From an uncultured Hyphomicrobiales bacterium (lineage in GTDB: Bacteria; Pseudomonadota; Alphaproteobacteria; Rhizobiales; Devosiaceae), in contig CAIMLX010000074.1 in assembly GCA_903842455.1 (NCBI GenBank), forward strand, positions 1 through 48,175: DNA of 48,175 nt, read 5' to 3'. Both the position numbers and the translations under genes were made by a program. The notes under the pieces are model-generated. The model was not told the origin of the DNA and did not search any database. It saw nothing but the letters and a program-made list of their open reading frames with translations. Below are positions 583 through 4,899 of this stretch, in pieces (within the stretch, counting starts at the first letter, position 1; the number at the start of each line of letters is the position of its first letter).

Positions 583-1020
583 CTATCGGGGCGTGCCGAG
601 CTTTTCGAGCAGTGTGCTGCCGGTGGCGTAGGCTATGTCGTCGATGCGCAGCCGTTGATCGACGAAGCGCAATACCAGTCTGTCGGCGTACTGGGCCTTG
701 TCGGGGTCCCGGTAGCCGAAGGCGATGATGACTTCGGGCGCAGCGGCGGTGCCACTGGCGCCAACCGGCATGCAGGTGTTGGCGTAGTCTGCGCTGCTTT
801 GCCAGGGGATCGCAGTGGCGGGGTCGGCACCCTCCGGCACTTGCCGGGCGATGAGCGCGGCCAACTCCGGGGTCAGGATGGCGAGGATCGGCGCCATGTC
901 GCCGCTGAGCCGGGCGGCACAGTAGATGTCGCCCACCTGAGTTGAGGTCAGCGAAACGGCGGCAGCAGGGCTGGCGGTGAGCGCCAGTGCGGCGCCGACG
1001 AACACGTTGGTGAGTTTCAT
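583..1020 (-). CDS. Small secreted protein of unknown function (145 aa)
   Basis: The ATG at 1018-1020 was chosen because AAGGGG stands just upstream and the protein then begins with a clear Sec signal peptide (MKLTNVF, hydrophobic core, AAA cleavage region near residue 20). An upstream in-frame start at 1068 would put an Arg-rich stretch before the signal and is unlikely. The mature part of about 122 residues has two Cys (in IYCA and NTCMP) that could form a disulfide. I do not recognise the family. It is divergent from the DUF3429 gene with a 131-base shared upstream region, and may or may not belong to the light cluster. Confidence 0.6.
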   Translation of the reverse strand: MKLTNVFVGAALALTASPAAAVSLTSTQVGDIYCAARLSGDMAPILAILTPELAALIARQVPEGADPATAIPWQSSADYANTCMPVGASGTAAAPEVIIAFGYRDPDKAQYADRLVLRFVDQRLRIDDIAYATGSTLLEKLGTPR

Positions 1021-1151
1021 GCCCCTTTGATGCCACGCCCTGGCGCGGGGCGCACCTATATCGCGCATCGGCCGGTACGATTGCCTGGTCGACGGTCAGG
1101 CCCGCAGGCTGCTACCTAGCAACTGTCTTTCGACAACCGGGGCTTGAGCCG

Positions 1152-1586
1152 ATGCATGCACACCATCAACGCCTTGCCATGGGCCTGACCTATGCCGGGG
1201 TCCTGCCGGTGTGGGTCGGTCTGGGTGCTTCACAGTTCGCGGACATCCCGTGGGTAGGCTCTGGCATGCTTGCCTACGGTGCCATCATCGTCAGTTTCGT
1301 CTGCGGGATGCACTGGGCTACGTTCATGAACGCTGCCGGGCCTCTGCCAATCAACCTGCTGGTCACCAGCAACCTTGGAGCATTGTCGGCGTGGGGGCTC
1401 ATGCTGATATCGCCCTGGTCCATGCCGGTCGCGTTCCTGGGACTGGCGGCGGTGCTGGGAATGCTTTTGGGCGTCGATCGACTGCTATTCTCGGCTCGCG
1501 CGATCGAGCCCTGGTTCTGGATGCTGAGGCGCAACGCATCGATCGGCCTGGGGGCGGGACTGCTGATCTGGGCGGCAATATCCTGA
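1152..1586 (+). CDS. DUF3429 family membrane protein
   Basis: This 144-aa protein has four to five hydrophobic segments (about residues 10-28, 33-55, 65-85, 90-110 and 125-143) and the conserved GMHW-type motif of DUF3429 proteins near residue 53. The biochemical function of the family is unknown; from memory its members often occur near photolyase/cryptochrome and other light- or stress-related genes. It is convergent with the rhodopsin gene, separated by a strong hairpin. The start is the first ATG; the Shine-Dalgarno (GGGG) is weak. Family assignment is by recognition, not by search. Confidence 0.75.
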   Translation: MHAHHQRLAMGLTYAGVLPVWVGLGASQFADIPWVGSGMLAYGAIIVSFVCGMHWATFMNAAGPLPINLLVTSNLGALSAWGLMLISPWSMPVAFLGLAAVLGMLLGVDRLLFSARAIEPWFWMLRRNASIGLGAGLLIWAAIS

Positions 1587-1659
1587 CTGAATGCCGGTGC
1601 TTGCCATTCGCGCTGCATTGGCAAAGCAGCACTGGCTGGCTCGACCCGATGGGCGCACA

Positions 1660-1687
1660 GGCCCGGGCAAGTGCAACAGCCCGGGCC
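1660..1687. terminator. Bidirectional hairpin between DUF3429 and rhodopsin genes
   Basis: A perfect 9-bp stem, GGCCCGGGC/GCCCGGGCC, with a 10-base loop sits in the convergent gap between the two genes. There is no T run, so termination efficiency is uncertain. Confidence 0.5.
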
Positions 1688-1705
1688 ATAGCGGCGACTA
1701 CCCTA

Positions 1706-2470
1706 TCAGGCCGCCCTGGCCTCCTGGGCCTCCTCGGCCTGGGACTTACGAACAGCGATGAGGTAGATCAGGATGCCCACGCCAGCCTTGGCGATGATGT
1801 CGGCGATGGTGTAGCCGACCTGCACGTACGTCTCGGTCACAGCGCCCCCGAGGTTGGTGTAGGGGATCATGTAGACGATGGGATAAAAGCCCCACGACGC
1901 GAAGGTCAGCAGCCTGGCCTGCTTGATGAGCCCGCGAACACTGGCCGGCTGACGCTCGATCGCAGCACCCAAGCCCCTGAACAGTTCCCAGACGATATAC
2001 AGGAACGGAACGGTCGAGAGCGTGCCCCAGATGGCGCGGGTGATATTGTCGTCGGCAATCTCGCCCGGGTAGCCCAGAACGATCATCAGCGCAGCGGCAA
2101 GCCCCAGCCTGACCGACTTGGACACGGTCTCCTGCTGGCTGAGCCGCATGACCAGGACCAGTTCGATCAGCAATAGCGGCACGGTCAGGAGCCAGTCGAC
2201 GTATCGGTAGGCGTCGTTGAAGGCGAGGCCCGTGACTGTGATGACGCCATCGCGCACTTCATAGGCTGTTTCCCAGCTCTCAAAGATACGGAAGTAGTGA
2301 TAGGCAGCGATGGCTGTGACCAGCCCAGAAATCGTCAGTGCAGTCTTGTATCCAGGTCCTACCTGCGATCGGCCGAACCATAGAAATATCGTCGCTGCCG
2401 CCATGGTAGCGAACGTGAATGAAAATGCGTTGTATACGAGCAGGTACTGCCCGATCTCGATCGTCGGCAT
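1706..2470 (-). CDS. Xanthorhodopsin-type light-driven proton pump
   Basis: A 254-aa microbial rhodopsin with seven predicted helices. Helix C reads RYVDWLLTVPLLLIE: Asp92, Thr96 and Glu103 form the DTE motif of outward proton pumps (Schiff-base counterion/acceptor Asp, donor Glu). Leu100 aligns with position 105 of proteorhodopsin, predicting green absorption. His58 matches the helix-B histidine that pairs with the acceptor Asp. Helix G has Asp224 and the retinal lysine Lys228 (ADIIAKAG). In helix E, WGTLST places Gly149 where bacteriorhodopsin has Trp138; in xanthorhodopsin this Gly opens a slot for a carotenoid antenna. Start ATG follows GAGAGG. The upstream region carries a palindrome shared with the gene at 3447. 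No blh or crt gene is nearby, so retinal must come from elsewhere in the genome. Confidence 0.95.
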   Translation of the reverse strand: MPTIEIGQYLLVYNAFSFTFATMAAATIFLWFGRSQVGPGYKTALTISGLVTAIAAYHYFRIFESWETAYEVRDGVITVTGLAFNDAYRYVDWLLTVPLLLIELVLVMRLSQQETVSKSVRLGLAAALMIVLGYPGEIADDNITRAIWGTLSTVPFLYIVWELFRGLGAAIERQPASVRGLIKQARLLTFASWGFYPIVYMIPYTNLGGAVTETYVQVGYTIADIIAKAGVGILIYLIAVRKSQAEEAQEARAA

Positions 2471-2571
2471 TGTAGCAAACCTCTCACTCGACTTTTCTGC
2501 CAGGTGTCGGTTGGGCGCGGAGCGACCCGGACACTGACCGGACGAGAGATATGCACTTCGGCTTTATCGGA

Positions 2572-2592
2572 CCATACGGCTTTTAAGCCGTG
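2572..2592. promoter_or_regulatory. Palindromic candidate LOV-regulator operator upstream of rhodopsin
   Basis: ACGGCTTTTAAGCCGT (2576-2591) is a perfect 16-base palindrome. Together with flanking bases it matches the site at 3903-3923 at 20 of 21 positions. It lies about 100 bases upstream of the rhodopsin start, ahead of a possible -10 (CATATC on the minus strand), a suitable position for an activator. Its 12-base core agrees at 10 of 12 positions with the EL222 consensus RGNCYWWRGNCY as I remember it. Binding by the LOV-HTH protein at 3934 is inference. Confidence 0.6.
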
Positions 2593-2688
2593 GTGCGGGG
2601 GCCGCGTCTGTGTGTCGATCCGTTCGTTCGCAGGAAGTCCATGCGGCAGACGGGGGTGCGGGCGGCGCGCCCAGCAGCTAGTCGGCGC

Positions 2689-3348
2689 TTACCAACTCAC
2701 CAGCCCAGGCGCAGCACCGATATAGGCGCGGTCTTGGATCTGCCGGACAAGAAAATCGGCGAGATCCGAACGCGAAATGAGCCCGTTTCGCCACTGCGAG
2801 GGCTCGCGCAGCACCTTGTAGCGGCCCGAGCGCCCGCCAGGTGTCAGGACACCGGGCCGCACGATTGTCCAGTCCAGCGCACTGCGCTTGATCAGCTCCT
2901 CCTGCCGTGTCTTGTCGTCATAGGCGCGGCCGAAGACGATCTGGAACGGGACTCTCTGCAGGCAGTTGATGCTCGCCCGGCTCTCACCGGCTCCGAATCC
3001 GGTCACGCAGATCAGCCGCTTGACCGACTGACCCTGCATTGCACTCAACAGAACGCGCGTCGCCTCCGAGAACAGGTGGACCGGCCGCGCCAATTCACCA
3101 AGCCCGATGCCCAGCGTCATGATCACTGCATCGACTCCGGCTAGGGAGGCCCTGACGTCGGTGAGGTCAAGCGCATCGCCGCTGACTTTTTCCAGTCTGG
3201 GGCTGACCAAAGACATCGTAGAGGCGGATCGCGCCAACGCCCTGACGTCGTAGCCAGCGTCGATGGCCTGGCGGGTGGTTTCTAGCCCGACGCCCTTGCT
3301 CGCCCCAATGATCAGTACTTTCAAGCCACTGTCCTCTACGTTACTCAC
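2689..3348 (-). CDS. SDR / NAD(P)-binding (NmrA-like, atypical SDR) protein
   Basis: The N-terminal Rossmann fold has the nucleotide motif GASKGVG (about residues 16-22) after beta-strand LKVLIIG, a following strand YDVRALAR, and VDAVIMTLG at the third strand, as in atypical SDR/NmrA-like proteins (about 219 aa). There is no classic YxxxK catalytic pair that I can place with confidence, so reductase activity is not assured. The GTG at 3348 has GGAA upstream; a TTG at 3324 with AGAGGA upstream would begin MKVLIIGASKG and is an equally credible start. It lies between the rhodopsin and the small membrane protein, all on the minus strand, 99 bases from the latter. Confidence 0.75.
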   Translation of the reverse strand: MSNVEDSGLKVLIIGASKGVGLETTRQAIDAGYDVRALARSASTMSLVSPRLEKVSGDALDLTDVRASLAGVDAVIMTLGIGLGELARPVHLFSEATRVLLSAMQGQSVKRLICVTGFGAGESRASINCLQRVPFQIVFGRAYDDKTRQEELIKRSALDWTIVRPGVLTPGGRSGRYKVLREPSQWRNGLISRSDLADFLVRQIQDRAYIGAAPGLVSW

Positions 3349-3446
3349 GCGTTCCGCTCGCGTTCATGCCCGGCATTCAGATACCGCTGCTTTGCCCAGG
3401 CTGCAGGGCTCGCAGTCACGCCTCTGTCGAGGGGCGGGGGTACCCT

Positions 3447-3755
3447 TCAGTCGTGCTCGCCAGTCTTGCCGCGACCAAGGCTACGCATGAAAAGCTGTGG
3501 CCGCGTGGCCGCCGAGGTCAGGGTCGCGACCGTTACGGCCGCAGCGGCAATCAACACCGTGTGCCCGACAGCGCTTGCCACGAATCCGGCGTAGCTGCCG
3601 ATCGCAAGCGAGAAACTGGTTGCCCACATCAGGCCGAGCGCCTGCAGGATGTAATGCCGGATTGCAATGTCGGGAATATTGCGAACCGGACTGACCTCAT
3701 GATTGAATACGAAGTTCCACGCCAGCAAGACGTAACCGCCGAGTTTATTCGCCAT
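3447..3755 (-). CDS. Small membrane protein of unknown function in the light cluster (102 aa)
   Basis: Starting at the ATG at 3753-3755, preceded by GGAGG nine bases away (an upstream in-frame start would swallow this ribosome site), the protein begins MANKLGGYVLLAWNFVFNHE. Hydrophobic segments lie near residues 5-17, 37-58 and 62-82, so two to three membrane passes are likely, with a basic C-terminal tail. I do not recognise the family. Its upstream region has a near-identical copy of the rhodopsin operator, which suggests that it and the SDR gene downstream are controlled together with the pump. Confidence 0.65.
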   Translation of the reverse strand: MANKLGGYVLLAWNFVFNHEVSPVRNIPDIAIRHYILQALGLMWATSFSLAIGSYAGFVASAVGHTVLIAAAAVTVATLTSAATRPQLFMRSLGRGKTGEHD

Positions 3756-3902
3756 AGGGATTTCCTCCTCGACTGGCCGAAGCTCGCCAGCCACTGTGTT
3801 TCAACCAATAGTTCGGGATGCGCCGCCTTGATCCACGCTCGTTTCCGCGGATCATCTGCAAAGCCTGCAAGTCTGTGATTTACGGGGTTAGGCGATGCCG
3901 CG

Positions 3903-3923
3903 CCATACGGCTTTTAGGCCGTG
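3903..3923. promoter_or_regulatory. Palindromic candidate LOV-regulator operator upstream of the 102-aa membrane protein
   Basis: ACGGCTTTTAGGCCGT (3907-3922) is a near-perfect palindrome and, with flanks, repeats the site at 2572-2592 with one difference. It lies between the LOV-HTH gene (stop at 3934) and the minus-strand gene starting at 3755, about 150 bases upstream of the latter. The 12-base core matches the remembered EL222 consensus at 11 of 12 positions. A possible minus-strand -10 (GTAAAT) lies about 30 bases downstream. Confidence 0.6.
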
Positions 3924-3933
3924 CAGGGGCGGC

Positions 3934-4551
3934 TCAAAGGCCGGCCTCTACTGCCAACCGAATGGCGTCGGCGACGTTGTGGGTGCCGATCTTCTCGAGG
4001 ATGATCGCGCGATGCATCTTCACGGTTTTCTCGCTCAGGCCCAGATGAAACGAGATCTGCTTGCTGCGATAGCCAGCGGCAATCTGTTGAAGGACTTCGC
4101 GCTGGCGTGGCGAAAGGGTCTTCACCACCTCCACGGCGTGACGATGGCGACTCGACGACGGCCCGACGGCATCCTCGTCCAGTTCGACCTGGGTGCCGAT
4201 GAAATACTCCAGCTCCCCGTCAGGTAGAAAAACAGGCGCTACAAGGACCGCGTTGCGGAAGGGGCTCCCGTCGCGCTTGTAGTTGAGGATTTCCACCAGC
4301 ACCGGCTTGCGGTCTCGGGTCCCCTGTCGAATGCGCTCTGTCAGCCACGGCTCGGTAGCCGGCCCGGCGAGGAACCGGCAGTTCCGCCCGACAATTTCAT
4401 CCACGCGATACCCGGTAAGGGTGCAGAACGCGGAATTGACGGCAATTATCGGATTGTCTGGAAGACGCGGGTTGCTGATCACCGAGGCGATCGGGCTGGC
4501 GGCGATCGATGACAGCAGCGCGCTGCTTGAGTCAGAATCGTAGTCGATCAC
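3934..4551 (-). CDS. EL222-like LOV-HTH (LuxR-type) blue-light transcription factor
   Basis: A 205-aa protein from the GTG at 4549-4551, which has GGGAGG ten bases upstream; a TTG 18 bases further upstream would destroy that ribosome site. The LOV/PAS domain (about residues 15-115) contains GRNCRFLAG with the flavin-adduct Cys58, then EPWLT, RQG and a [13 protein letters not shown] strand, all closely matching EL222 of Erythrobacter litoralis. A short linker leads to a C-terminal LuxR HTH (about 146-205: [21 protein letters not shown]). In EL222 blue light forms a Cys-FMN adduct that frees the HTH to dimerise and activate transcription; the same is expected here. It is flanked by the two candidate target operons and is the obvious local regulator of the rhodopsin cluster (inference). 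Confidence 0.93.
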
Positions 4552-4743
4552 GAGAACCGCACCTCCCAAACCAGCCTATGCCGATTCATGGGCCGATAGT
4601 GCGGGGCAATCAATACGCCCTCCCGCCTCATAGGGTCGCAACATCTTGCGTGATGTGCCGGCCAGAACCACCCTGGCTCCATCGCTTTGCCAGGTTGTAC
4701 TGGTGTCGACCTAATGGTTCGAGCATCGGCGCTCCAGCCAGCC

Positions 4744-4899
4744 TTATCCGGGTTTGGCGTGCCTTTGGGCCCGGCAGGCGTCCGAACAGTATTTGACATC
4801 CTCCCAGACCTTCTCCCACTTCTTGCGCCAGACAAAAGGGCGCCCGCAAACCGCACAGCTCTTGACCGGCAGGTCTCTCTTTTCGACACGCTTTGCCAT
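4744..4899 (-). CDS. DUF2256 family zinc-ribbon-like small protein (51 aa)
   Basis: Read from the ATG at 4897-4899 to a TAA at 4744-4746, this 51-aa protein begins [15 protein letters not shown] and has two Cys pairs: CAVC (15-18) and C38SDAC42, separated by the aromatic/basic segment [16 protein letters not shown]. That is the DUF2256 pattern, probably a small metal-binding ribbon. Function is unknown; from memory it is commonly encoded beside photolyase/cryptochrome genes, which fits the LOV regulator and rhodopsin here although no photolyase is present. It is on the same strand as the LOV gene, 192 bases upstream of it. Confidence 0.85.

Follow-up and report, generated by a model that had tools for sequence, protein, structure and literature searches.

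A xanthorhodopsin gene beside a LOV-HTH regulator

To our knowledge, how bacteria time the production of rhodopsin pumps is poorly known. A locus from an uncultured Hyphomicrobiales bacterium (Devosiaceae; contig CAIMLX010000074.1) raises the question of whether a xanthorhodopsin (XR) gene is switched on by a blue-light receptor encoded close to it. The whole stretch of 48,175 nt, to which all coordinates refer, is here called the window, and the locus occupies the focal interval 583-4899. On the minus strand the order of transcription is a DUF2256 gene, a gene for a transcription factor with a LOV domain and a helix-turn-helix (LOV-HTH), a palindrome named operator 2, genes for a small membrane-type protein and a short-chain dehydrogenase/reductase (SDR)-like protein, a palindrome named operator 1, and the XR gene. 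The genome is Devosia-like and belongs to the same genus as a metagenome-assembled genome titled Devosia equisanguinis, referred to as the sister genome (locus L032, genome G085).

The LOV-HTH gene (3934..4569, minus strand) encodes an EL222-type protein of 211 aa with the Pfam domains PAS_9 and GerE; it consists of LOV and HTH only, and no kinase domain was found in it. The closest solved relative is EL222 of Erythrobacter litoralis HTCC2594 (8a5r; E 1e-77, collinear over 194 aa), with 62% identity in a direct comparison. Both have the same two-domain architecture, the adduct cysteine (Cys64 in the window protein, inside the GRNCRFLAG motif at LOV residues 61-69) and a collinear C-terminal HTH of the GerE/LuxR type.

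The XR gene (1706..2470, minus strand; Bac_rhodopsin, E 3.2e-40) encodes a protein of the outward proton pump type. Alignment to the Salinibacter ruber xanthorhodopsin (3ddl) placed the pump motif at D92/T96/E103, together with His58 and the Schiff-base Lys228, and Gly149 of an IWG motif in helix E at the position of the glycine that makes room for a carotenoid antenna. The pump motif and antenna glycine are common to the window XR, the Salinibacter protein (E 1.7e-77) and psXR (E 3.1e-77). All the gene assignments of a sequence-only reading of this DNA (LOV-HTH with GRNCRFLAG, DTE rhodopsin, DUF3429, DUF2256, SDR and small membrane protein) were confirmed by domain and residue checks.

That reading had also described matching palindromes upstream of two minus-strand units. 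Two near-identical palindromes are indeed present, spanning 2573-2592 and 3904-3923, and no palindrome match appeared in 100 shuffles of the window. Operator 1 (CACGGCTTAAAAGCCGTA; 2575..2592, minus strand) lies upstream of the XR gene and agrees with 15 of the 18 letters of the consensus described below, while operator 2 (CACGGCCTAAAAGCCGTA; 3906..3923, minus strand) starts 11 bp past the LOV gene, ahead of the genes for the small membrane protein and the SDR, and agrees with 16 of 18. When each of the two intergenic regions was shuffled 5000 times, no shuffle reached 15 consensus letters. Both palindromes are kept unchanged in the sister genome, within surrounding sequence that has drifted. 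Downstream of each is a predicted -10 element, TATCTC (2546..2551, minus strand) for the XR and TAAATC (3877..3882, minus strand) for the second unit. In both, the TA is 33 bp away from the centre of the operator, which would put the start sites near 2539 and 3870, respectively.

Conservation of the LOV-XR pair and its operator

The best 80 of 457 EL222-like loci were compared, a sample biased to the kin of the window. Of these, 29 have an XR after the LOV gene, namely the Devosia sister and 28 others. In these 28, out of the 79 loci beyond the sister, the LOV gene is directly upstream of the XR on the same strand, with gaps of 109-321 bp and no gene between. They belong to Brevundimonas, Caulobacter, Sphingomonas, Blastomonas and Erythrobacter. 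A third same-strand gene cluster is found behind the XR in 27/29 loci (these open reading frame clusters mix reading frames), and the four third genes that Pfam could name are all beta-carotene dioxygenase, blh. Conservation across Hyphomicrobiales, a point raised in the sequence-only reading, is not supported: among the 136 genomes of the family to which the window belongs, only two have the LOV gene, its own included. The orders in which the LOV-XR pair is established are Caulobacterales and Sphingomonadales.

Each of the 28 LOV-XR gaps has a version of the palindrome, 4-57 bp past the LOV stop; its consensus is TACGGCCTAAAGGCCGTA, and the next letters are usually TGG, TAG or TCG. This consensus includes a perfect copy of the published EL222 site, RGNCYWWRGNCY, as that rule is given in the accessible part of PMC10521638. 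Within the gaps RGNCYWWRGNCY is exact in 18 cases and has one mismatch in eight and two in two; the operator weakens to 12-13 of 18 consensus letters in some Sphingomonas. At least 12/18 letters were present in 28/28 gaps, compared with 300/5600 shuffled gaps, and the same match with a TA at +33 in 19/28 gaps, compared with 5/5600. Counting XR-positive and window sites together, the TA lies at +33 in 23 of 32, both window sites among them, and no other single offset has more than four.

Among the genomes searched, the site also goes together with this LOV gene. With up to two mismatches it occurred at a single place in 12/12 LOV-XR genomes searched, and nowhere in the 4/4 searched XR genomes without the LOV gene. 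Seven XR genes with no adjacent LOV gene (G098, G036, G621, G869, G147, G353 and G271) have no such site in the ~1.1-1.5 kb upstream that their loci cover, the maximum being 12/18 letters; the LOV-XR wiring is therefore one option, not universal for XR. In the window's own genome a 16-mer search with at most one mismatch gave four places, the two window sites and two intragenic ones, and the 18-mer consensus with at most three mismatches gave the window sites and one intragenic place. Looser 16-mer matches (2-3 mismatches) number hundreds, of which the one looked at is intragenic. The near matches examined elsewhere in the genome were all intragenic and include genes for an M16-type peptidase and an NmrA-like protein, as well as two that we take, from their sequences, to encode ATP synthase alpha and a glycine dehydrogenase-like protein.

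A wiring between the LOV protein and the rhodopsin is thus real and conserved, and is probably functional, judging by sequence comparison. Control of the XR through the palindromes, as proposed in the sequence-only reading, gained strong comparative support from the 28/79 adjacency, the EL222-fitting operator, the fixed -10 spacing and the lack of the site at the seven XR genes that have no LOV gene next to them.

Proposed mechanism and alternative explanations

We consider it likely that the LOV-HTH protein, as a one-component regulator, activates the XR gene next to it in response to blue light. Blue light would form a flavin-cysteine adduct in the LOV domain and free the HTH; the freed protein would dimerise, bind the palindrome and recruit RNA polymerase to the XR from a site just upstream of -35. 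Taking the T of the TA as -12, the operator centre would fall near -44, with the operator edge near -36. In the relatives a single promoter would drive XR and blh, the latter for retinal synthesis. In the Devosia lineage the LOV and XR genes are separated by those for the small membrane protein and the SDR, with a separate operator for each predicted transcription unit. We infer binding by the window protein, dependence on blue light, the direction of activation and a function for the two extra genes; the cell probably makes the pump when light is usable, as far as the sequences indicate.

Several observations weigh against this explanation. The locus rows are related by descent, so that the counts are not independent; in the samples of family, order and class, the seven XR genes other than that of the sister all lack an adjacent LOV gene; and the TA is absent at +33 in nine of the 28 relatives. 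The window sites deviate from RGNCYWWRGNCY by two mismatches (operator 1) and one (operator 2). One XR gene without LOV, in L030, has a 12/18 match 325 bp upstream, with only 4/8 arm pairs. L095 and L101 have a LOV gene but neither an XR nor a clear site. A simple sigma-70 scan gave no promoter at either window site, which would be expected if the promoter is activator-dependent, but is also a negative result. In Sphingomonas sp. AAP5 the XR was silent under every condition of the Kopejtka 2020 study, including samples harvested in the light. Finally, no retinal source was identified in the window's own genome, where neither Blh (PF15461) nor an RPE65-type enzyme (PF03055) was found; without these known retinal-forming enzymes a working pump is only putative in this organism.

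Both enzymes are absent from 4/4 XR genomes of the window's family (its own, G085, G098 and G036), and Blh was found in all seven of the other XR genomes searched.

Palindromes of the 7-2-7 type are usual for GerE-type HTH proteins, and at least nine further proteins of the window's genome have a related HTH, so another LuxR/NarL-type regulator or a response regulator might bind the site and the LOV gene be a mere neighbour. This is unlikely, given that the site accompanies the LOV gene in all the LOV-XR gaps and is missing from XR genes without LOV, that it occupies one place per genome, and that it matches the EL222 consensus.

The palindrome could otherwise act as an RNA hairpin, either a terminator or the 3' end of the LOV mRNA. 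Its position shortly past the LOV stop in the relatives, arms that allow a 7-bp stem with a TAAA loop, and a convergent next gene in some loci without XR would suit such a role. Against it, a T run is lacking, the five terminator-like sites include neither window copy, a -10 core follows at a fixed distance, the palindrome agrees with a DNA consensus of EL222, and the window copy before the XR comes after the SDR gene, 1.3 kb from LOV. We therefore regard a hairpin in place of a DNA operator as quite improbable.

The direction of control depends on where the operator lies. According to PMC9614035, blue light activates the synthetic promoter pBLind, which has its EL222 operator upstream of -35, and EL222 can act as a repressor from a site between -35 and -10. 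The second arrangement would allow the LOV protein to repress the XR in blue light, so that the pump is made in the dark or in dim light; this is very unlikely, since the operator ends ~36 bp before the predicted start, upstream of -35. Activation is favoured for the same reason, the operator being in the activating position of pBLind, and the window has this arrangement in a natural and conserved form.

The locus of AAP5 has an XR beside blh and a LOV protein, and its locus-tag order fits LOV-XR-blh, as in the Sphingomonas locus L105, as far as the published text allows this to be read. The LOV-XR wiring was partly foreshadowed in print, as Kopejtka 2020 saw this pair; in the accessible text the partner is taken for a blue-light-activated histidine kinase and the XR for a possible sensor, and an operator is not described. 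That the XR is a light sensor partnered with a neighbouring kinase, as proposed there, is the least probable explanation and hardly credible, because the partner in the examined Sphingomonas loci (e.g. L105; the AAP5 gene is not among them) is a 211-aa LOV-HTH that matches the NCBI blue-light kinase model over its LOV part only (129 bits against a cut-off of 450), and the XR has the pump motif with blh next to it. The accessible part of PMC13043013, which lists XR operons, mentions neither LOV nor histidine kinase. In PubMed Central, from which subscription journals are mostly absent, no paper was found on a LOV-HTH protein controlling a rhodopsin.

A one-component LOV activator would replace the kinase idea and offer a mechanism for the light dependence of the AAP5 XR, which is reportedly made only in light and cold (Kopejtka's 2022 work in PNAS). 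The single visible operator before the pump gene makes the control of rhodopsin readily testable.

History of the module and its flanking genes

In phylogenetic trees the window LOV nests among the Brevundimonas-type LOV-HTH proteins whose genes precede an XR (91% best identity, support 98/87), and the window XR nests among Brevundimonas-type XRs (90% best identity, support 88/87). As both nest in this way, the sequences suggest that the LOV-operator-XR unit was transferred jointly into the Devosia lineage from a Brevundimonas-like donor. On the LOV tree the XR label changes three times (at least two changes are forced), compared with a mean of 24 for shuffled labels; the association therefore arose or was lost more than once. 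L095 and L101 are XR-negative rows inside an XR-positive group of this tree. In L040 and L041 the LOV and operator are of Brevundimonas type, yet the XRs are distant and group with those of genes without LOV (100/99), which indicates that the pump was exchanged behind the same switch.

Two other accounts of the locus were rejected. A tRNA-borne island does not fit, as no tRNA was found in the window and the G+C dip is slight (0.61 vs 0.63-0.66). Mis-binning of the contig appears unlikely, as the sister genome has the same locus and flank, and the window LOV forms its own branch.

The sequence-only reading had also spoken of accessory proteins. Of the candidates, only the two genes between LOV and XR have an operator before them, and both are nearly confined to the window and its sister. 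The small membrane-type protein (3447..3755, minus strand; 102 aa), encoded by the first gene after operator 2, has no Pfam or NCBIfam match, and among the 80 loci it has a counterpart in the sister only, at 99%. The second gene encodes an NAD(P)H-binding SDR/NmrA-like protein (2689..3348, minus strand; NAD_binding_10, E 4.1e-40), with a 93% match in the sister and a 30% relative in L110, and is otherwise found in the window only.

The remaining genes of the interval 583-4899, which had been taken as one cluster, show no tie to the conserved module. DUF3429 (1152-1586, plus strand) accompanies none of the 80 LOV loci and DUF2256 (4744-4899, minus strand) six of them, so both are regarded as bystanders; the third is an open reading frame without an assigned family (583-1068). 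The DUF2256 gene is broken in the Devosia sister, and one is located shortly upstream of the LOV gene also in L080, L082, L089 and L098.

Other genes and RNAs behind EL222-like genes

Operator-like sequences were also found near the LOV stop where no XR follows. A half-site of at least 5/6 letters with at least 4/8 arm pairs is present in 30 of the 51 XR-less loci, by a lax test that has no shuffle of its own, and of the 46 XR-less rows that pass a looser anchor, 31 have a TA at +32 or +33. A fasciclin-domain gene comes first behind operator and TA in three loci (L072:8669-9217, L084:8685-9233 and L086:8681-9253). Seven more (L043, L087, L090, L095, L101, L103 and L108) also carry a fasciclin gene, but there the operator-like match is weaker and a TA at +32/33 is missing.

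A GCATCG-like element follows in 26 of the 51 XR-less loci, and in 25 of these a complementary end is found 77-111 nt further on. It marks an undescribed candidate structured RNA of ~77-92 nt, ~60-90 bp past the LOV stop, with a C-rich loop containing CCTCC motifs, behind XR-less EL222-like genes (L049-L066, L075, L077, L094 and others; e.g. L053:8665-8749). The 17 Erythrobacter-type elements show pairing in 97.9% of the cells of their 14-bp closing helix, with seven pairs changed on both sides; 0/500 shuffles scored as high, so that covariation supports the helix. An RNA model built from these 17 was run over the window and 75 of the 80 loci (L034, L036, L038, L039 and L048 were left out). 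It found three more behind LOV genes, in L057 (8.7e-8), L050 (5.1e-7) and L093 (5e-4), and had no match in the window; Rfam names no such RNA in the eight loci searched. It is possible that the element is an untranslated 3' element instead of a small RNA, since no terminator was identified.

That one element precedes XRs of different kinds, fasciclin genes and a small RNA would suggest a cassette with a light promoter, spreading together with its regulator. We consider it slightly more likely than not that EL222-type genes are portable switches with a light promoter past their stop and exchangeable cargo (XR-blh, fasciclin or small RNA); the natural target of the EL222 branch may then be a light-induced small RNA. 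The natural target genes of EL222 are not named in the accessible part of its source, whereas the window LOV-HTH has a likely target next door. If this view is correct, the natural target of the branch that supplied a common optogenetic tool would be a small RNA encoded right after the regulator, and EL222, mainly used as a tool, gains candidate natural targets. EL222 itself branches with L069 beside the Erythrobacter-type RNA group; L069 has neither operator site nor RNA.

Two further RNA features were observed. A longer candidate, with a GCATCG start and a CCTCCCTCCTCC loop, is located past the LOV stop in Parasphingorhabdus-type loci (L067, L079, L080, L082, L089, L097, L098 and L109). The XR leaders of Sphingomonas (L068, L073, L076, L087, L090, L099, L103, L105 and L108) open with a strong hairpin of ~90 nt, CACAGCGGC ... 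GCCGCTGTGG, which is possibly a riboregulator, considering that the AAP5 XR is said to be cold-dependent.

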